A DNA stretch of 64,000 nucleotides from Pirellulaceae bacterium (GTDB lineage: Bacteria > Planctomycetota > Planctomycetia > Pirellulales > Pirellulaceae). The stretch's first letter is position 1, and the number at the start of each line of letters is the position of its first letter. The notes beneath the pieces were generated by a model that saw only the letters and a program-made list of their open reading frames with translations, did no database searches and was not told the origin of the DNA. The position numbers were made by a program, and so were the translations under genes. Shown here piece after piece: positions 40,818 through 50,232 of the stretch. The stretch lies in the NCBI GenBank assembly GCA_026004795.1, contig BPJV01000001.1, forward strand, positions 654,446 through 718,445, in the 5' to 3' direction.

Positions 40818-40985
40818 CCTTGGCGGTGCGCCACCCCTCGCCGATGGGCACCTCTCCAATGCTGCATCAGCCGTACAGATCACTCCGGTTCCCAAGCTTT
40901 GTGTCTGGTTTGTCTGGTTGTCTGGTTGTCTGGTTCCCAGGCTCCGTGCATAGTGTCTGGTTGTCTGGCTTATCTGGTTTGTCTG

Positions 40986-41159
40986 GTTCCCAGGCTCCGC
41001 CTGGGAACCCACTGTCTGCCAGGCTCCGCCTGCCCAACCGGCTGCCGCGTCGTTGTTGGTTGCGTGATGGATTATTGAGGCGGAGCCTCAGTGGCAGCGC
41101 GTTCCCAGGCAGAGCCTGGGAACGAGATCCTCTGTGGTTCCCAGGCAGAGCCTGGGAAC
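40986..41159. repeat. REP-like palindrome cluster 1 (three 23-bp copies)
   Basis: Copies at 40986-41008, 41101-41123 and 41137-41159 share the palindrome GTTCCCAGGC-N3-GCCTGGGAAC. Between the first and second lies a conserved spacer containing GAGGCGGAGCCTC, itself palindromic. The whole block (about 140 bp) recurs at 48.9-49.1, 49.8-50.0 and 50.1-50.2 kb. Just upstream (40900-40990) is a short tandem array of GTCTGGTT. The interval 40818-41268 has no gene. See the RAYT gene at 49182-49718. Confidence 0.9.
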
Positions 41160-41268
41160 GAGTTCAGGGAGGAACTCGCTCCAGCGTCACCGCACCCATC
41201 GATCATGACCGGACCGATGTCCGCGTTGGTTCGTACTTGTGAAAGTCTGTGAAGCGCGAGGCCAAGGG

Positions 41269-44200
41269 TTAGGAGAATACCTCGTTCGCCCAGTTCGTAC
41301 ACAGTGCGGCGGCCTGCTCCAGTACCTGTTCCGTGGCCTTGGCTTGTTTGTCGGGCGGGTAGCCGTGTTTGCGAAGGATGCGTTTGACGATCACGCGGAT
41401 TTGGGCACGAGCGTTTTCACGCTTCGTCCAGTCGACCGTCACACTGCGTTTGACCGCGTCGACCAACTCTTGAGCGATCAACTTCAGCTTTTCGTCGCCC
41501 AAAACTTGCACGGCGCTGTCGTTTGCTTCCAGAGCGTCATAAAACGCGATTTCGTCGTCGGTCAGGCCCAGGTTCTCGCCGCGTTTTTGGGCGTCGCGCA
41601 TTTCCCGGGCGAGCTGGATCAGCTCTTCGATGACTTCCGCCGCTTCGATCGCCCGGTTCTGATACTTGCGAATCGCCTGCTTCAGCATCTCGGAAAACGC
41701 CCGGGCCTGAACCACATTCCGCCGCATCCGCACCTTGATGTCGTCGTTGATCAGTTTTCTCAGCAGTTCCAGAGCCAAATTGCGTTGCGGCAGCCGCTTC
41801 ACTTCGGCGAGAAACTCGTCGGAGAGAATCGAAATGTCCGGCTTGTCCAAACCGGCCGCGGCGAAGATATCGACGACTTCCGTCGGAGCAACCGCCTTGG
41901 AAACCAATTGGCGAACGGCGGAATCCAACTCCGCCGGTGACCGCTCCGTTTCGGAAACCGTCGCTTTGACCAGCCCGGAACGAATCTCCTGAAACAGGCC
42001 GACTTCGTCGCGAATCGCCAACGCCTTCTCGTGCGGCACGGCCAACGCAAACGCCTTCGACAAGGCGCTGACCGCTTGCAGGAAACGACGTTTGCCATCA
42101 TCCAGACCGAGCACATATTCCATCGCCTCGGCAATGGCCTTCATCCGCTCGCCGGCCGACATCCGCAAAATCGCGGGGTAGCCTGCCTGCCGTCCCCGCT
42201 TGTTTAGCATGAACTGCTTTATTCGGCGACGCCCAGCACCAGTCTTCCACTCACGCTCTTTTCGTACAGCCTCGTCTCGTGATGCGACTTGTTCAGAACA
42301 GACAATTCGTATCGGTCGGAAAAGTTTTGTGTGTCTCGACGCGGTACCGGCTACATGTTGCTTCCACCGCTTGGACAGGTCCTCCGTCTGTCCGATGTAG
42401 ATACTCCCATTGTCACATTCAATCGCATAAACACAAAACCCCGTCGGGAACGGCGCAGGCAGGTCGAAGCCGTGCATCATGTCCTTCACGACCGCGTACT
42501 TCTCCAGCATCACCGCGACAGCCTGGTCCTGATCAACGGTCGCCTCGCCTTTGCCGCCGCTGGCCGTGTACGTCTTGAGCGCCCGTTTCAAGGCGTCGGC
42601 GATGCCCAAATAATCAACCACCAACCCGCCAGGCTTGTCCTTGAAGACTCGGTTCACCCGCGCGATCGCCTGCATCAGGTTGTGCCCGCCCATCGGCTTG
42701 TCGATGTACATCGTGTGCATGCTGGGGCAGTCGAAACCGGTCAGCCACATGTCGCGGACAATGACCAATTTCAGCGGGTCGGCCGGGTCCTTGAATCGCT
42801 TGGCCAGCTCCTCGCGGGCAGTTTTCGAACGGATATGGCCTTGCCAAGTCGGATCGTCGCCGGCCGAGCCGCTCATCACGACCTTGATCACACCTTTGGC
42901 GTCGTCGTCCGCATGCCAATCGGGACGCAGCTTGACGATCGCGTCATACAAGGCAACGCAAATCCGGCGGCTCATGCAAACGATCATCGCCTTGCCGTCC
43001 ATCGCCTCCAGCCGTCGCTCGAAATGCTGCACCAGGTCTTCGGCGACCAGGCCCAGCCGTTTGTCCGTCCCGACCATCGCCTCGAGCGCGGCCCATTTTG
43101 TCTTCAGTTTCTCCTTGGTCGTTTCTTCCTGATCCTCGGTGATCTCCTCGAACTCTTCGTCGATGTGCGGCGTTTCTTCCTCGTTCAGCTCCAACTTGGC
43201 CAGCCGCGATTCGTAATAAATCGGCACCGTCGCTCCGTCTTCCACGGCCCGCAGAATGTCGTACTTGTCGATGTAGTTGCCGAAGACGGCCGGAGTGTTC
43301 TTGTCGTCCAGTTCGACCGGCGTTCCGGTAAAGCCGATGAACGACGCATTGGGCAGCGCGTCGCGCAAGTACTGAGCAAACCCGTATTTGATGTCGCCCG
43401 ACTTGCGGTCGATTTTCGCCTTGAACCCGTACTGGCTGCGATGTGCTTCGTCCGCGATGACCACGATGTTGTGACGCTCGCTAAGCGGTTCGCCGTCGTC
43501 CGCTTCTTCGAACTTCTGGATGGTGGTAAAGATCACTCCGCCGGAAGCGACGCGCAGGCATTCTTTCAAGTGCGCTCGGCTGGAGGCCTGGACCGGTTTC
43601 TGCCGCAGCAGATCGCTGTTGCCGGCAAACGTGCCGAAGAGTTGATCGTCCAGGTCGTTGCGGTCAGTGATCACGACGACCGTCGGGTTTTCCATCGCCG
43701 GGTGACGAATGACTTTGCCGGCGTAAAAGACCATCGAGAGGCTCTTGCCCGAGCCCTGCGTATGCCAAACCACGCCGATCCGCCGGTCGCCTTCCGGGCG
43801 AGTCGCTTCGATCGTGCACGAGACCGCTTTGTTCACCGCCCAGTACTGGTGATACGCGGCCGCTTTCTTGATGATTGTCTTGCCGTCGTCTTCGAACGTG
43901 ATGAAGTTCAGCACGTAGTCCAGAAACCGCTGCCGGTCGAACAGCCCTCGCAGCAGAACCTCCGTTTCGATTTGGCCTTTCTGAACGACTTCCGTACCGT
44001 CGATCGTCCGCCACGGCATGAACCGGTCCCAACCGCTGGTCAGCGTTCCGGCGCGGGCGGAAAACCCATCGGAAATCACCAGCAGCGCGTTGTAGGTGAA
44101 CAGGCTGGGGATGTCTTTCTTGTAAGTTTGAAGTTGGTTGTAGGCGTGCCGCAGCGTCGTCTTTTCCTCGGCCGGGTTCTTCAGTTCGATCACCACCAGC

Positions 44201-44703
44201 GGCAGGCCGTTGACAAACAGCACCACGTCCGGACGCCGGTTCCGTTTGCCTGCCTGTCCGGCAGACAGGTCTTCGATGACCGTGAACTGATTGACGACCA
44301 GAAACTCGTTGTTGTCCGGATCGTCGCGATCGACCAGCCAGACCTTGTCGTGTTTTTCGCCGTCGCCTGCCTCGTCGGCAGACAGGTCCGTTCGCCAAGA
44401 CACATCGACGCCGTCGGTCAGCATCTTGTGAAAGCGGCGGTTGTTTTCGATCAGCGAGGGACTCTCTGGCCGCAGCACCTGCCGCATCGCTTCTTCGATC
44501 GCCTCGGCCGGGATCGTCGGGTTAATCCGTTCCAGCGCATTCCGCAACCGTTCGACCAGCACGACCTGCCCGTAATCAGCTCGCTCCGGAGCTTCTCCAT
44601 CGGGAGCAATCGTCGGCCCGTGCACATATTCCCAGCCCAACGGCTCGGCCTTCAGCCAGTCGCAGACCGCGATTTCCAGTTGTGCTTCGTCGAGAGCTTT
44701 CAT
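41269..44703 (-). CDS. hsdR: type I restriction endonuclease subunit R (HsdR) with embedded GIY-YIG domain
   Basis: Motor and nuclease subunit of a type I R-M system (1144 aa). The N-terminal PD-(D/E)XK nuclease shows RRPDVVLF then VVIELKNP (about 150-175). The SF2 helicase has Walker [12 protein letters not shown] (about 316) and DEAHRSQYG (about 418), with a [18 protein letters not shown] segment later. A helical C-terminus binds the methylase. Two seven-residue palindrome-encoded inserts lie near residues 106-113 and 145-152, the second just before the catalytic aspartate, and a GIY-YIG domain occupies about 747-841. The ATG at 44703 was chosen; a GTG at 44730 lies inside a repeat. The frame is intact throughout. 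Confidence 0.93.
42182..42463 (-). mobile_element. in-frame GIY-YIG nuclease element inside hsdR, bounded by palindrome arms
   Basis: A 282-bp (94-codon) segment whose plus-strand ends are CCTGCCTGCCG and CGGCGCAGGCAGG, near-inverted repeats that correspond to the two arms of the 21-bp palindrome found five times elsewhere in hsdM and hsdR. It encodes a GIY-YIG domain of the small stand-alone type: CVYAI, then [18 protein letters not shown] with the catalytic Arg, and [13 protein letters not shown] with the metal-binding Glu. The flanking HsdR sequence (MMHGFD before, [20 protein letters not shown] after) resembles continuous HsdR. It reads as an insertion that preserves the host frame. Confidence 0.8.
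44249..44269. repeat. 21-bp in-frame palindrome in hsdR, copy near the nuclease motif
   Basis: Arms CCTGCCTG and CAGACAGG around five bases. On the hsdR strand it adds the peptide LSAGQAG directly before the [10 protein letters not shown] nuclease motif. Length 21 bp keeps the frame. Confidence 0.85.
44366..44386. repeat. 21-bp in-frame palindrome in hsdR, degenerate copy
   Basis: Arms CCTGCCT and CAGACAGG, encoding LSADEAG in HsdR after VSWRTD. It has decayed relative to the other copies but has the same length and orientation, and it also keeps the frame. Confidence 0.7.
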
Positions 44704-44723
44704 TCGGTCGGTATCTTTGTTTT

Positions 44724-44800
44724 GAAACACAGAGGCACAGAGAGCACAGAGTTCTGGTGGAATGGGTGTTCTCCGTGTCCTCTGTGTTTCTGTGTTTTCA
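44724..44800. repeat. 77-bp hairpin repeat, copy A (inner boundary of GxxExxY cassette)
   Basis: Left arm begins GAAACACAGAGGCACAGAG; the right arm is its imperfect complement ending in CTGTGTTTTC; the central loop of about 20 bases is variable. It lies between the 5' end of hsdR and the 3' end of the GxxExxY gene (5 bp away). Confidence 0.9.
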
Positions 44801-44805
44801 TTTCT

Positions 44806-45189
44806 TCATTCTTCATAACCGTTAACAATGCGGTGCACTCCATCAACCAAGCGAACTTCATGGAAATTGATCAACAACCCGAATCGCAGGCCGAGTAATC
44901 GCAGATGCGATAGCGTCTGCGCCTTATCCACGGGATGAATGGTGGTCTTGGCTTTGAGTTCCACGACGATCTGCCCGTTCACGATCAGATCCGCGCGGAA
45001 CCCGCAATCCAGTTTTACTTCATCGTAAACCACCGGCACCGGGACTTCTTCACGTACGTCAAAACCACGTTTGCGAAGTTCGAATGCCAGGCACACTCGA
45101 TACGCGGATTCCAGCAATCCCGGACCGAGTCGGCGGTGCACTTCGATCGCGGCGCCAATGATTTCTCGTGTTAAGTCATTGGTATTCAT
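44806..45189 (-). CDS. GxxExxY protein (PD-(D/E)XK nuclease-like)
   Basis: A 127-aa protein of the GxxExxY family. The name-giving motif is LGPGLLESAYRVCLAFEL (about residues 21-38). The nuclease-like core follows: a Glu in LLES, the Asp in FRADLIVNGQ, and VVELKAKTTI, an arrangement like PD-(D/E)XK enzymes, though activity is not proven for the family as far as I know. The gene fits tightly between two 77-bp hairpin repeats (5 bp on the 3' side, 19 bp on the 5' side), giving a compact 563-bp cassette (44724-45286) inserted between hsdS and hsdR. It could be the enzyme that moves or maintains the repeats. Such genes often occur in several copies per genome, which also hints at mobility. Confidence 0.85.
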   Translation of the reverse strand: MNTNDLTREIIGAAIEVHRRLGPGLLESAYRVCLAFELRKRGFDVREEVPVPVVYDEVKLDCGFRADLIVNGQIVVELKAKTTIHPVDKAQTLSHLRLLGLRFGLLINFHEVRLVDGVHRIVNGYEE

Positions 45190-45208
45190 GGATTGGATTT
45201 CCGGGGTT

Positions 45209-45286
45209 GAAACACAGAGACACAGAGAGCACAGAGGGAACGCGCGTCAGGCGATCTCCGTGTCCTCTGTGCCTCTGTGTTTTGAA
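45209..45286. repeat. 78-bp hairpin repeat, copy B (outer boundary of GxxExxY cassette)
   Basis: Same arms as copy A: GAAACACAGAGACACAGAG on the left, and CCTCTGTGCCTCTGTGTTTT on the right, with a different loop. It lies 19 bp upstream of the GxxExxY start codon and may carry that gene's promoter or 5' untranslated region. Confidence 0.88.
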
Positions 45287-45295
45287 ATCATCCCA

Positions 45296-45427
45296 TCACG
45301 GCACCTCCACTTGTTCGAGTGCCGATTCGTTGGTTTGAAGCATGGAAACGTACTCCCACCCCAGCGGCTCGGCCTTCAGCCAGTTGCACACGGCGATTTC
45401 GAGTTGTGCTTCGTCGCGCGTTTTCAT
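45296..45427 (-). pseudogene. chimeric remnant: hsdR N-terminus joined to hsdS C-terminus
   Basis: A 43-codon open frame between hairpin copies B and C. Its first 27 residues copy the HsdR start ([22 protein letters not shown] in both). Its last residues copy the HsdS end (ESALEQVEVP against ESVLEQIEVP). At DNA level 45351-45447 matches 44627-44723 over 97 bp at roughly 85% by eye, and 45294-45332 matches 45533-45571. It is a duplicated junction between the two genes, diverged enough not to be recent. Whether it is translated is unknown. Confidence 0.8.
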
Positions 45428-45447
45428 TCGGTCGCTTTCGTTGTTCT

Positions 45448-45524
45448 GAAACACAGAGGCACAGAGAACACAGAGTTTTCGTGCGATGGGCATTCTCCGT
45501 GCCCTCTGTGTCTCTGTGTTTTCA
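45448..45524. repeat. 77-bp hairpin repeat, copy C (solo, between hsdS and remnant)
   Basis: Arms GAAACACAGAGGCACAGAG and CCTCTGTGTCTCTGTGTTTT with a 20-base loop. No gene is carried. It starts 10 bp after the hsdS stop codon in the direction of transcription. Confidence 0.9.
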
Positions 45525-45534
45525 AATCCTCGCA

Positions 45535-46869
45535 TCACGGCACCTCAATCTGTTCGAGGACCGATTCGTCGATCTCGCCGCTCAGGAGCTTGGGCAGCAG
45601 CGTGTCGCGAAGGGCGGCGAGGCGGCGGTTTTGACAAACGTTCAGTGGAATGCGGCGGTGAAAATCGCCAACGAGTTCTTGGAATGCTTGCACAACATCA
45701 ACCGGCGGAATGGCCAGCGGGTAGCGGCTCATGTCTTTCCAGTTGGTACGCGGCATCTTCGTGCCGGCTGAGTGTGAGTCGGTATAGTCGACGAACTCCT
45801 TGCTGGAGACGAGAGAGAGCACGTAACTGCGCCAGTGTTCAGACTTCGGAACAATGACAAGAATGTCCGTTGAACAGACGCCGTCGACGGGTGCGATCCC
45901 GACCTTGTGAAAGTATGGCCGCAGTTTTCCGAAGAGTATTTCTCCGGTGTTGAATCGCGATTTCTGGCTGCCAACCTCGTCCGCACGTCCCCATGTATCC
46001 AGCGCGATGCACCGCCTTGGCATGTCCTGCAGGCCAATGTAGGGAGTCGCGGGCGGAACCTCCTCCGGCTTGATGCTGCGACGTGGGTTCTCTGAAACGT
46101 CGCCCAAGGTTCCCGCTTCCCAACCTTCCGGGATTGGGCCGAGGGGGGAGTCTTGGAAGGTGTTGGGGAAGAGGTCGGCGAGGTGTTTGGGGAGGGCGGG
46201 GGCGCGGCCTTCGGCTTTGGCGCGGACCGGGTCGAAGTCGATGAACCAGCTCTTGAAAATCGCCGCCGCCATCCCCTCCAGCGTCCGGTTCATCCGACGA
46301 TTCAACTCAATCTTGTCGTCCAACGTGCCAAGGATGTGCGCGATGCGACGTTGGGTTTCTAACGGAGGGAGAATGAACGGAATCTCTGACACGATTGACG
46401 TATTGAGATTCGGCATCGTGGCCCCGACAGCATGACGCGTAATCCACTCACGAGTGAAGGGGTGCCGTAAGACGAATGAGGCAAATCGTGGAACCACTAC
46501 CCCGCGGCCGAGATTAACCTTGATACAACCTGTCCCACAAAGCCAGCCTGCTTGTTCAGGTTCGATCAAAGCATGCCGCTCGACATCGCCGCGCCTGCTG
46601 TAAACGATATCACCTGCCGCCACGCGATGCCGCGATAGTCGCTCGGCATCGTCTTTTGAAATACGCGCGATGCCGTTTGCTACGATTCGGCCATCACCAA
46701 TGTTAACAGGCATAATTGACGGGATTCCGACGTCTACGTAATCGGACGCATGAAGCTGACTACCGAAGGGTCCGGTCTGTATTCGTCCCCCGGCGCGGCG
46801 CACGATCTCACCAAGCGTCGTGCGTTCCCAGTCAATTGGCAGTGCTGTCGATTGAAGGTCATTCGCCAT
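45535..46869 (-). CDS. hsdS: type I restriction-modification specificity subunit HsdS
   Basis: DNA-recognition subunit, 444 aa. Two target-recognition domains: the first at about 15-185 opens with RTTLGEIVRRAGGRIQTGPF, the second at about 230-410 opens with WEAGTLGDVSENPRRS. The conserved spacer helix between them reads LPPLETQRRIAHILGTLDDK, and a second helix near the end carries QNRRLAALRDTLLPKLLSGE. The two-domain structure predicts a bipartite recognition sequence, which cannot be read from the protein. Its ATG overlaps the last codons of a duplicated hsdM tail (ATGGCGAATGA), the ancestral overlap of the two genes. Confidence 0.93.
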   Translation of the reverse strand: MANDLQSTALPIDWERTTLGEIVRRAGGRIQTGPFGSQLHASDYVDVGIPSIMPVNIGDGRIVANGIARISKDDAERLSRHRVAAGDIVYSRRGDVERHALIEPEQAGWLCGTGCIKVNLGRGVVVPRFASFVLRHPFTREWITRHAVGATMPNLNTSIVSEIPFILPPLETQRRIAHILGTLDDKIELNRRMNRTLEGMAAAIFKSWFIDFDPVRAKAEGRAPALPKHLADLFPNTFQDSPLGPIPEGWEAGTLGDVSENPRRSIKPEEVPPATPYIGLQDMPRRCIALDTWGRADEVGSQKSRFNTGEILFGKLRPYFHKVGIAPVDGVCSTDILVIVPKSEHWRSYVLSLVSSKEFVDYTDSHSAGTKMPRTNWKDMSRYPLAIPPVDVVQAFQELVGDFHRRIPLNVCQNRRLAALRDTLLPKLLSGEIDESVLEQIEVP

Positions 46870-46925
46870 AACCCAGCACCTCCAGGTTCTTGCGGATGGC
46901 GGCGTCGAGTTGTTCGGCTTCGGCC
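46866..46925 (-). repeat. 60-bp duplicated 3' end of hsdM at the hsdS start
   Basis: This segment matches 47035-47094 (the true hsdM end) at 58 of 60 bases. Both copies encode a tail ending VLGYGE. This copy overlaps the hsdS start codon, so it probably marks the original gene junction, while the copy ending hsdM now lies beyond a hairpin repeat. Confidence 0.9.
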
Positions 46926-46945
46926 GTTGCCTTGCTGAAGTTTTT

Positions 46946-47022
46946 GAAACACAGAGGCACAGAGGTCACGGAGAGAGAGCGCAGGTTTTTTGCTCTGTGT
47001 TCTCTGTGTCTCCGTGTTTCCA
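46946..47022. repeat. 77-bp hairpin repeat, copy D (solo, between hsdM and hsdS)
   Basis: Left arm GAAACACAGAGGCACAGAG, right arm CTCTGTGTCTCCGTGTTTCC, with a T6 loop region. It separates the two copies of the hsdM tail. Confidence 0.9.
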
Positions 47023-47027
47023 TCTCT

Positions 47028-48797
<1,770 letters not shown>

Positions 48798-49012
48798 GTG
48801 TGATTCCTTCGAGTCGGTCATTCCATGGACGCATCGTCGAGCGAAAAGTTGAGTACAGTGTACCGGCTGATCGGGGAAGCTTCGACGGCCGTTTTGGCTC
48901 CCAGGCGGAGCCTGCGGTTCGGTGGGGCGTCAGGGTCAGGCTGCGACAGTCGGCTGCCGCGTCGTTGTCGGTTGCGTGGTGGATTATTGAGGCGGAGCCT
49001 CAGCGGCAGCGC

Positions 49013-49084
49013 GTTCCCAGGCAGAGCCTGGGAACGAGTTCACGTTGTGTCTGGTTGTCTGGTTCCCAGGCTCCGCCTGGGAAC
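49013..49084. repeat. REP-like palindrome cluster 2 (two intact copies)
   Basis: Intact GTTCCCAGGC-N3-GCCTGGGAAC palindromes at 49013-49035 and 49062-49084; a partial unit begins at 48895. The preceding 48950-49012 repeats the conserved spacer seen in cluster 1. An 11-bp tandem repeat (CGAACACCTGC twice) lies at about 49110-49131. The cluster fills the space between the hsdM start and the RAYT gene end. Confidence 0.9.
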
Positions 49085-49181
49085 CCACTGTCTGCCAGGC
49101 TCTGCCTGCCGAACACCTGCCGAACACCTGCCAAATATCGCGCTTGCCGAATAGGCAGCTCCGCACGATGTGTCCAACCGG

Positions 49182-49718
49182 CTACCTCCAGTCGGTATTT
49201 ACATCGAGCAGGCCAGGCTGACCGGCGTAGTTCCTGGCGCTGGAGTATCGCCAGTGCTCTGGGGCATCTACATAGCCGCGACGAAGCGGGTTGTTGTGGA
49301 TGTACTCGATCTTCTGCCACATCACGTCTTCCTGTTCGATCAACTGAGGATGGCTCCCCTCCTGCCACACTTGATGCGTCTGATCGACCTTGTGTCTCAG
49401 CTTGTAAAACTGAAGCTCCTGAAGAAGGGTTTCGTAGCCCAAGCGCTGCATCGTCTTGATGATCGTCGTCGCTGTGAACGACTTGAATTCTCCGACACGC
49501 CTGGCGAGTCGTGGCCCGACGGCAATCCAGTGCAGGTGGTTTTCCAGAATGACATACGCCAGGATTTCGATCTGTCGTTCACGCTGCAGAAACCGCCAGC
49601 TATCAAGGACGACTTCCGCGAATGCAGGATAGGAAAAGACGGGGAGCCAGGCGACCACCGTGTTGGTCATGAAATGGGGATAGTAGTCCTCACCGAAGCG
49701 GTAGCGGGATCGGGACAC
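49182..49718 (-). CDS. REP-associated tyrosine transposase (RAYT, Y1 transposase family)
   Basis: A 178-aa single-domain HUH-type enzyme related to the IS200/IS605 Y1 transposases. It has the metal-binding histidine pair in VILENHLHWIAVGP (usual form VIMPNHxH). A FTATTIIKTMQRLG helix in the middle probably precedes the catalytic tyrosine region. The C-terminus IEYIHNNPLRRGYV with EHWRYSSARNY is highly typical of RAYTs. The start is GTG at 49718. REP-like palindrome clusters lie on both sides (nearest ends 49084 and 49776), the classic arrangement for an enzyme that mobilises REPs in trans. Confidence 0.9.
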   Translation of the reverse strand: MSRSRYRFGEDYYPHFMTNTVVAWLPVFSYPAFAEVVLDSWRFLQRERQIEILAYVILENHLHWIAVGPRLARRVGEFKSFTATTIIKTMQRLGYETLLQELQFYKLRHKVDQTHQVWQEGSHPQLIEQEDVMWQKIEYIHNNPLRRGYVDAPEHWRYSSARNYAGQPGLLDVNTDWR

Positions 49719-49775
49719 GGTTTGAGCTCCTTTGCGATGCCTGGGCCGTTTCGCGGCAGAGCCGCAATGCCGGGC

Positions 49776-49965
49776 GTTCCCAGGCGGAGCCTGGGAACGA
49801 GTTCACGTTGGTTTATCTGATGTCTGGTTCCCAGGCTCCGCCTGGGAACCCAATGTCTTCCAGGCTCCGCCTGCCCAACCGGCTGCCGCGTCGTTGTCGG
49901 TTGCGTGGTGGATTATCGAGGCGGAGCCTCGGTTGGCAGTACGTTCCCAGGCGGAGCCTGGGAAC
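49776..49965. repeat. REP-like palindrome cluster 3 (three copies)
   Basis: Copies at 49776-49798, 49827-49849 and 49943-49965, with the conserved GAGGCGGAGCCTC spacer between the last two. The layout of the second and third copies mirrors the first and second copies of cluster 1, so these are two copies of one composite unit of about 140 bp. Confidence 0.9.
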
Positions 49966-49980
49966 GAGTTTAAACGAGTT

Positions 49981-50014
49981 CAATATAGCGGCTGATGCAA
50001 TATAGCGGCTGATG
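49981..50014. repeat. perfect 17-bp tandem duplication
   Basis: The unit CAATATAGCGGCTGATG occurs twice head to tail (49981-49997 and 49998-50014), just outside REP cluster 3. Confidence 0.85.
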
Positions 50015-50080
50015 GAAAAGGTCTCGCTGGTATTCTCGGCATTCCGGTGTCTGGTTGTATGGCTCAGTGCATGGTGTGTC

Positions 50081-50189
50081 GTTCCCAGGCAGAGCCCGGG
50101 AACGAGTTCAACGAGTTCACGTTGGTTGTGTGGTGGATTATTGAGGCGGAGCCTCGGTGGCAGTGCGTTCCCAGGCAGAGCCTGGGGAC
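50081..50189. repeat. REP-like palindrome cluster 4 (two slightly degenerate copies)
   Basis: Copies at 50081-50103 and 50167-50189, each with one base change in the right arm, joined by the conserved spacer. The interval 49719-50541 contains no gene other than these repeats and the inverted repeat that follows. Confidence 0.88.
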
Positions 50190-50232
50190 GAGTTCATGCT
50201 ACAGCATCGGCCTGGCGAGTTCACCGATGACA

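Follow-up and report, generated by a model that had tools for sequence, protein, structure and literature searches.

In-frame insertion of a GIY-YIG nuclease domain into hsdR of a planctomycete between the arms of a dispersed palindrome: a candidate nuclease-palindrome mobile system

In a 64,000-nucleotide stretch of DNA from a Pirellulaceae bacterium (contig BPJV01000001.1, positions 654,446 to 718,445; the window), the Type I restriction gene hsdR carries an in-frame insertion of 282 bp that encodes a GIY-YIG domain and is bounded by the two arms of a 21-bp palindrome. Five more copies of this palindrome occur without a gene ("empty" or "solo") in hsdM and hsdR. We give an about even chance to the view that this "loaded" segment is the enzyme-carrying copy of a mobile system of nuclease and palindrome. 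We observed an exact insertion, arms and codon register common to both forms, conserved residues of the domain, dispersal of the palindrome in Patescibacteria, an association of GIY-YIG genes with palindromes, and nuclease lineages that track palindrome families. The best reading is a partnership of nuclease and repeat, in which GIY-YIG nucleases work with palindromes in a manner like that of REP-associated tyrosine transposases (RAYT) with repetitive extragenic palindromic (REP) sequences or like free-standing homing endonucleases, and that it belongs to no named family. The loaded element and its host gene are:

41269-44730, minus strand: hsdR, which hosts the insertion and encodes the R subunit of a Type I restriction system, 1153 amino acids (aa) including the insertion (open reading frame (ORF), profile match, homologues)
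42182-42463, minus strand: 282-bp insertion, GIY-YIG nuclease domain between palindrome arms, loaded (profile match, homologue alignment, end comparison)
42455-42463, minus strand: 5' arm, coding strand CCTGCCTGC (end comparison)
42182-42190, minus strand: 3' arm, coding strand GCAGGCAGG (end comparison)

The Pfam model PF01541 (GIY-YIG) matched the isolated segment with 58.9 bits and the same region inside HsdR with 55.1 bits, which bears out the complete in-frame domain proposed by a model that saw the letters only (the sequence-only reading). The insertion comprises 94 codons in the hsdR frame (LPAPFPTG...KRGRQAG) and is located between the motor part and the C-terminal domain; the alignment of HsdR to the EcoR124I motor stopped at query residue 725, and the insertion follows that part. 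The two ends, CCTGCCTGC...GCAGGCAGG, repeat each other exactly over 9 nt in inverted orientation and have the sequence of the palindrome arms. Thus the proposed match between ends and arms was correct, while the strictly common arms measure 9 nt instead of 11 and 13, and the codon register is 42181-42462. The loop of this split form is 264 nt. Ends of this kind were found in 1 of the 3,180 segments of 282 nt in hsdR and in 2 of 63,718 in the window. The third-position GC content of the insert was 0.517 vs 0.77 for hsdR. An assembly error was ruled out, as the window lies within contig C1 of 1,157,536 bases and 4,523 nt are identical in a second deposited assembly (L009). Because L009 is the same DNA, it is not an independent case.

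Most Planctomycetota homologues of HsdR aligned up to residue 756-761 and resumed at 858-861, and the gap closed on removal of the 94 codons. The insert was absent from all 21 of the 26 other Planctomycetota HsdR genes (32-70% identical) that aligned across the site (24 rows, three of them second loci of one gene) and from two plasmid HsdR as well, i.e. from 23 homologues. Five HsdR genes were left unaligned across the site (L075, L082, L085, L088 and L089), and three of the 21, L084, L086 and L087 (about 32% identity), were too divergent for exact placement of the site. The exact 94-codon empty site that the sequence-only reading had hoped to see is therefore present, and a GIY-YIG domain as a general part of HsdR was ruled out (0 of 23). 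The domain might have been kept as a second HsdR nuclease behind the motor domain for better restriction. The open frame, the retained conserved residues and the position after the EcoR124I-motor-aligned part are in line with such a domestication. Yet none of the 23 homologues has the domain, and the presence of solo palindromes in both hsdM and hsdR suggests a neutral load. We consider domestication very improbable.

The solo palindromes of the window and the gene hsdM are located as follows; the palindromes are unstranded and were placed by pattern scan and alignment:

44249-44269: empty palindrome, seven-codon insertion LSAGQAG in HsdR
44366-44386: degenerate empty palindrome, LSADEAG in HsdR
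47266-47286: empty palindrome, LPAGQAG in HsdM
47302-47322: empty palindrome, LPAGKAG in HsdM
48040-48060: empty palindrome, LPAGQAG in HsdM, inside a longer insertion relative to homologues
47028-48821, minus strand: hsdM, carrying three solos (ORF, homologues)

All five solos of the sequence-only reading were recovered, the one at 44366 being degenerate in one arm. A scan of the window with the 21-bp pattern at up to three mismatches yielded 13 matches, counted per strand and partly overlapping, vs 0.19 expected, and 13 was reached in 0 of 100 shuffles. Together with the segment-end counts this rules out a chance origin of arms and palindromes. The solo peptides have the same register as the loaded element. 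Without its seven codons the solo at HsdR 155 left a gap-free junction in 15 of 17 rows, and those at HsdM 501 and 513 did so in three of four homologues. Most rows had the HsdR 116 junction shifted by a single residue; the HsdM 255 solo sits within a 19-residue insertion. The coding-strand base 3' of the palindrome was C at all six hsdM and hsdR sites; the true palindrome unit may be longer by one base or shifted.

The window domain has the residues that are invariant in an eight-row alignment, Y12, Y22-I-G, R32, H36 and E69. AlphaFold modelled it with a pLDDT of 85.8. The best Foldseek match was UPF0213 1zg2 (E 1.5e-4), the only one with E below 0.001 and also the best sequence match, while SLX1, a branched-DNA nuclease by its entry titles, appeared at E of about 0.02. 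An IMG/VR scan with the window protein gave a single match over 17 residues. The domain thus qualifies as a member of the GIY-YIG superfamily with a predicted UPF0213-like fold and a predicted nuclease role.

Known element classes were compared with these properties. Inteins are characterized by a HINT/splicing domain and by ends of the type Cys/Ser ... Asn+Cys/Ser/Thr. An intein was rejected, as Pfam detected GIY-YIG and no splicing domain in the segment, whose first residue is Leu and whose last, Gly, precedes a Tyr. A group I or group II intron was rejected, as the Rfam scan of 41200-49000 contained no intron family at E up to 0.1; its two matches, both at 44720-44866, were below the gathering score. 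The NCBIfam model of a group I intron endonuclease matched the GIY-YIG domain below its cutoff (25.5 of 56 bits). The segment resembles inteins and GIY-YIG-bearing group I introns in that a nuclease domain lies in a host gene whose frame (intein) or product (intron) is kept; unlike these, it appears to stay in the protein. Terminal inverted repeats as in DNA transposons are present (9-nt arms, longer in some relatives). The target-site duplication of a classical DNA transposon or miniature inverted-repeat transposable element is absent, with 0 nt at all six window sites; over 113 palindrome sites it was 0-1 nt at 101 and 2-7 nt at 12. Compared with REP/RAYT, the element encodes GIY-YIG only and no Y1 transposase. 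It shares with Rickettsia palindromic elements the in-frame palindrome in many genes, but their peptide-encoding unit has about 150 bp vs 20-21 bp here. As for the tRNA proximity typical of SegB-like enzymes, a tRNA gene was within 300 bp of 44 of 113 relatives, and the window copy itself lies inside hsdR.

The palindrome is dispersed in other genomes, in which the sequence-only reading had proposed to look for empty sites. Among 286 Patescibacteria genomes a 20-nt form was found in 69, with up to 24 copies (G499), and the 21-nt form in 16, with 24 exact copies in G481 and 38 there at up to one mismatch; the reversed-pattern control gave 0 throughout. At up to one mismatch the 20-nt form was also present in six of eight selected Planctomycetota genomes, with 23 copies in G195, 12 in G099 and 0 for the control. 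The reversed control pattern GGACGGACNNNNNGTCCGTCC of the 21-nt search had 12 copies in the Planctomycetota genome G353, perhaps another dispersed palindrome. Within the source genome (5.59 Mb, 97% complete) the 21-mer at up to one mismatch was confined to the hsd locus, and there was no 20-nt form. Because of this restriction to the hsd locus and the differing third-position GC of insert and hsdR, the simplest inference is that the locus would have been loaded with copies in another host before it arrived here. Groundwater Patescibacteria are predicted donors of GIY-YIG genes, among others, to other bacteria, and a full type I restriction system lies on a genomic island of one of them, according to the available part of PMC12455944. 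This picture fits a Patescibacteria-like source and is no proof of it.

In G481 and other Patescibacteria the 21-mer stands in frame within proteins and uses more than one reading frame. After deletion of the seven codons, a protein that we take to be MurB (L286) aligned gap-free to a 62% identical homologue, and a presumed FemAB-like protein (L258) likewise; a presumed Elp3-like protein (L260) and a presumed glycosyltransferase-like protein (L256) had a gap of one to two residues at or near the junction. These names are our assumptions from motifs and not from a family search. Reading frames of at least 200 codons harboured 23 of 46 distinct 21-nt instances vs 6 of 55 of the 20-nt form (Fisher p = 1.9e-5), in a collection that is dominated by a few rich genomes and includes the window copies. 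Genes thus favour the length that keeps the frame, and selection could be the sole reason. Because the frame-breaking 20-nt form is common, with 49 of 55 instances outside long frames, selection rather than mechanism may account for the kept frame. The earlier statement that the element lands in coding sequence without breaking it therefore applies to the 21-nt form and not to the 20-nt form.

GIY-YIG genes were also found beside the intact palindrome. The exact 20-mer CCTGCCTGCCGGCAGGCAGG starts 47, 44 and 42 nt before the GIY-YIG domain in genomes G616 (L303), G628 (L374) and G495 (L392), respectively. By eye, it splits an apparent truncated copy of a tRNA gene in each case (Leu, Leu and Ser), and ARAGORN located an intact tRNA of the matching kind downstream. 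Both tRNA-Leu cases use the identical position, with enzymes that are 62% identical. At L376, L396 and L410 the 20-mer is less than 0.5 kb from a GIY-YIG domain in a looser arrangement. Altogether, at six loci among the 55 distinct instances the 20-mer and a GIY-YIG domain were no more than 1 kb apart. L303 entered the collection as a GIY-YIG match and L392 was chosen since its coordinates were seen to be close, whereas L374, L376, L396 and L410 entered via the palindrome; a spacing of 42-47 nt is found at just one of these four, L374. The sequence-only reading had named two outcomes as fatal to it, HsdR proteins generally carrying the domain and no further GIY-YIG genes tied to the palindrome; the aligned homologues without the domain and the loci L303, L374 and L392 are the opposite of both. 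Among 116 Patescibacteria, the mean number of GIY-YIG matches was 4.2 in 22 genomes with the 20-mer vs 2.9 in 94 without it (one-sided p = 0.012) and 6.6 in eight genomes with at least four copies (p = 0.001), with p-values uncorrected for multiple tests. A weak genome-level effect in this direction is expected if several lineages serve several palindromes.

The association was then followed into a wider set of small GIY-YIG genes. The first sequence relatives, L010-L016, among them four Patescibacteria and one Akkermansia metagenome-assembled genome, carry TCCGCCAGCTGGCGGA, TCCGTCAGCTGACGGA or a near variant inside what by eye are truncated tRNA copies, and intact tRNAs are near the gene in L010, L011, L013 and L015. 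We then compared 113 distinct small GIY-YIG genes having at least 200 bp on each side with 91 other ORFs and 250 random places; the 113 are no random sample, being best-scoring matches, and seven Planctomycetota source genomes were selected for having the palindrome. Direct repeats of at least 14 nt across the gene occurred in 33 of 113 vs 0 of 91 and 0 of 250, and inverted repeats of at least 10 nt at both ends in 21 of 113 vs 1.1% and 2%. A tRNA gene within 300 bp was present in the above 44 of 113 vs 9.9% and 4%, GC-rich palindromes in 31 of 113 vs 8.8% and 7.2%. Perfect palindromes of any composition (45 of 113 vs 23.1% and 15.2%) were less telling. The GIY-YIG genes adjoin several unrelated hairpin families. 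In G423 (700 kb) a GIY-YIG gene was enclosed in six of 17 loci with inverted repeats of at least 12 nt spaced 200-420 bp apart; a circular-shift null gave a mean of 0.03 and a maximum of 3 in 2,000 draws. In G423 the same arm families also occur without a gene; the loop then measures 60-118 bp in CCCGTTAGA hairpins and 32-111 bp in TGTCAT hairpins (one mismatch allowed).

Several individual loci deserve description. By eye, tandem arrays of apparent truncated tRNA copies, each with a short palindrome, adjoin the GIY-YIG gene at L010 (1-350) and L012 (3252-3571). At G423:C1 409725, 578714 and 666320 short palindromes, including the CCTGCCTGCCGG form, lie in internal loops of larger TGTCAT-type hairpins. 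At L043 a GIY-YIG gene with inverted CCCCGTTAGT arms is flanked on each side, by eye, by a diverged copy of the preceding gene's 3' end; the element looks as if its own gene end had come along. At L042 (G222) a GIY-YIG domain is fused in frame to the C-terminal end of a 406-aa membrane-protein ORF across a half-hairpin-like stretch.

If enzyme and palindrome are partners, nuclease lineage should follow palindrome family. We labelled 161 GIY-YIG domains by the neighbouring palindrome as A (CCCGTTAGA-like arms, 9), B (TGTCAT-like arms, 13), C2 (short palindromes, 26) and others (113). The A and B patterns were set after viewing the arm list, C2 was rule-based, and C3 (13 rows) was picked post hoc from C2 by tree neighbours. 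On a FastTree tree the labelled rows alone required 6 label changes vs 19.6 after shuffling (0 of 200 as low). Over all 161 rows and 200 draws, A required 3 changes (shuffled mean 8.9, lowest 7), B 9 (12.7, lowest 11) and C2 15 (24.6, lowest 21), so none of the three is a single clade. On an IQ-TREE tree of 78 rows, with 30 sampled unlabelled rows and one B row (G423_m1_574054) dropped, A and B each occupied one side of a branch among the labelled rows (support 98), each with Planctomycetota and Patescibacteria members, and the labelled rows required 2 changes vs 16.3 shuffled. The tree, built from an alignment of 80 retained columns, has many uncertain forks. Within a single genome (G423, G012 and G612) A enzymes were 23-38% identical to B enzymes, while identity within one class averaged 52-53%. 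Nuclease lineage thus tracks palindrome family, and therefore co-transmission is favoured over free target choice.

Free target choice is the core of a second explanation, in which a free-standing GIY-YIG endonuclease of the homing type prefers hairpin-rich sites and landed in the middle of a resident, independently mobile palindrome, so that the two are not one element. GIY-YIG genes next to unrelated hairpin families and tRNA genes, short palindromes nested in loops of other hairpins, and the splitting of this palindrome by an enzyme here only would all be expected from it. On the other hand, free choice would not give the tracking of palindrome family by lineage in two phyla with the identities described above; thus we regard this explanation as possible but doubtful.

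A number of results weigh against a mobile system of nuclease and palindrome. A GIY-YIG domain between the split arms of this palindrome, for which the sequence-only reading had proposed a search of genomes, was found at one locus only, the window (and L009), the palindrome being intact elsewhere. None of the sampled GIY-YIG loci had the split form. Two IMG/VR scans for it returned 23 and 14 stretches (four in common), 0 of them with a GIY-YIG domain; the loop range of the first, 228-258, excludes the 264 of the window. Exact 21-nt copies in Planctomycetota (12 of 392 genomes, 19 copies) were not above the reversed control (8 genomes, 22 copies, 12 of these in G353). Palindrome and GIY-YIG counts across genomes correlated weakly (Spearman 0.23), such arms were missing from 92 of the 113 small GIY-YIG genes and a tRNA within 300 bp from 69, and replication in G421 was weak (1 of 54 inverted-repeat loci, null 0.06; 1 of 7 GIY-YIG genes). 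The labels of the trees were assigned after the arms were seen. The window domain lies in a poorly supported part of the tree with C-type rows nearest by path. It was 37-39% identical to the G616 enzyme, several C2 or unlabelled rows reached 36-39% and L014 43% on another alignment, so the window domain appears no closer to the G616 enzyme than to several other rows. The lack of target-site duplication at the window sites belongs here too.

The single split-arm case and the weak genome-level correlation are what one would expect if the palindromes spread otherwise, by replication slippage or an enzyme acting in trans, and the GIY-YIG gene was captured once, between copies or via short-arm recombination, and kept since it is in frame. 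Against such a passenger stand the three genomes in which an intact 20-mer starts 42-47 nt ahead of a GIY-YIG domain, the inverted repeats of G423, which enclose GIY-YIG genes far more often than under the null, and the lineage tracking; we judge it unlikely. As for the earlier claim that solo and loaded forms are two states of one element, the common arms and register support it, and the duality recurs in the unrelated genome G423 with other hairpin families and weakly in G421; the data also fit a palindrome-invading nuclease or two partners that move together. Taken as a whole, the interpretation of the sequence-only reading is supported in part and is widened by these results.

For the partnership of nuclease and palindrome we propose the following course. 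A bare GIY-YIG nuclease of UPF0213-like fold would be paired with a family of short, stop-poor palindromes; gene-bearing copies would provide the enzyme, and gene-less copies of 20-21 bp would be passive. The nuclease would recognise hairpins or cruciforms, i.e. its own palindrome, hairpins of tRNA genes and others, and cut them, and the break would be repaired by copying the palindrome, alone or together with the gene, into that site. Within coding sequence, survival would be limited to products that preserve the frame, those of 21 bp or of 282 bp with a stop-free nuclease frame. The hsd locus would have received its loaded copy and its five empty ones in another host and then reached this planctomycete. 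A nuclease that reads hairpins would explain why tRNA genes, terminator-like hairpins and palindromes all serve as sites, why palindromes nest and why target duplication is lacking. Cutting, recognition of structure, copying, autonomy and transfer of the locus are what we infer; that cleavage and movement are not observations counts against the proposal as well. More generally, unnamed, widespread minimal elements consisting of a bare GIY-YIG nuclease (about 80-90 residues) and hairpin arms (about 260-300 bp) may move themselves and gene-less palindromes, including in frame into essential genes, a tentative view to which we give somewhat less than an even chance.

The proposed partnership resembles several described systems, of which Rickettsia palindromic elements and yeast GC clusters come nearest as repeats and RAYT/REP and SegB as enzyme systems. 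RAYTs are HUH/Y1 enzymes and REPs are extragenic, and phage SegB is not known to be inserted in frame within a protein gene. Unlike in RAYT/REP, the enzyme here is GIY-YIG and the repeat enters coding sequence. Both cases tie a small nuclease-type enzyme to high-copy short palindromes, as far as the accessible text of PMC8266576 and PMC3116915 on REP/REPIN and RAYT (TnpA-REP) goes. SegB is, like the relatives described here, a free-standing, tRNA-associated GIY-YIG enzyme, and its cutting with subsequent recombination of the tRNA 5' region with the segB 3' region leads to tandem repeats (PMC13096335, available part), which resemble the truncated-tRNA arrays at L010 and L012; SegB is thus a precedent for a GIY-YIG enzyme implicated in cutting at tRNA genes. 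Unlike the palindrome link here, the term "palindrom" is absent from the main text of that paper. Rickettsia palindromic elements are likewise dispersed palindromic repeats in frame in many unrelated protein genes, but they have about 150 bp, each with a conserved peptide, and the part of PMC10969869 at hand names no nuclease, whereas here a 20-21-bp empty unit coexists with a gene-bearing form. Yeast mitochondrial GC clusters are also short, GC-rich, mobile palindromes that merge, and mitochondrial intron endonucleases are proposed as their movers; unlike the palindromes here they are mitochondrial, mostly intergenic and with putative target-site duplications, and no gene inside a palindrome is described (PMC4478555, accessible part).

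The window contains further enzymes next to repeats. At 44720-45531 a GxxExxY gene (TIGR04256, 44806-45189) lies between inverted CACAGAG repeats whose arms are 73% complementary, with an extra CACAGAG copy alone; with it, the operon has two nuclease-like ORFs enclosed by hairpin arms. A stretch including the hsdR start is duplicated with 85% identity (44624-44807 and 45348-45531). At 49182-49718 a RAYT gene (NF047646) is found beside GTTCCCAGGC...GCCTGGGAAC palindromes, which are distinct from the 21-bp palindrome and are repeated at 40983-41162 and about 48950-50196. This is the window's third pairing of an enzyme with palindromes.

Literature searches on GIY-YIG with palindromes, Patescibacteria, tRNA genes, RAYT/REPIN and in-frame insertion, which covered few subscription papers and included accessible parts of PMC12455944 and PMC7218506, revealed no link to such bacterial palindromes among the matches listed. 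These matches concerned mostly fungal mitochondria, restriction enzymes, phages and RAYT. A search for GIY-YIG together with "repetitive extragenic palindromic" found none, and searches by repeat sequence gave nothing related among the matches listed. Our findings point to an undescribed kind of minimal mobile element. We know of no mover for most dispersed bacterial palindromes. If small GIY-YIG proteins, often named by family only, were such movers, a common protein family would gain a function and several orphan repeat families an enzyme, explaining the origin of several dispersed bacterial palindrome families. Few autonomous mobile elements known so far would be as small as these, and in-frame palindrome insertion, for which the available text on the Rickettsia case names no mover, would become testable with one protein and one 21-bp substrate.

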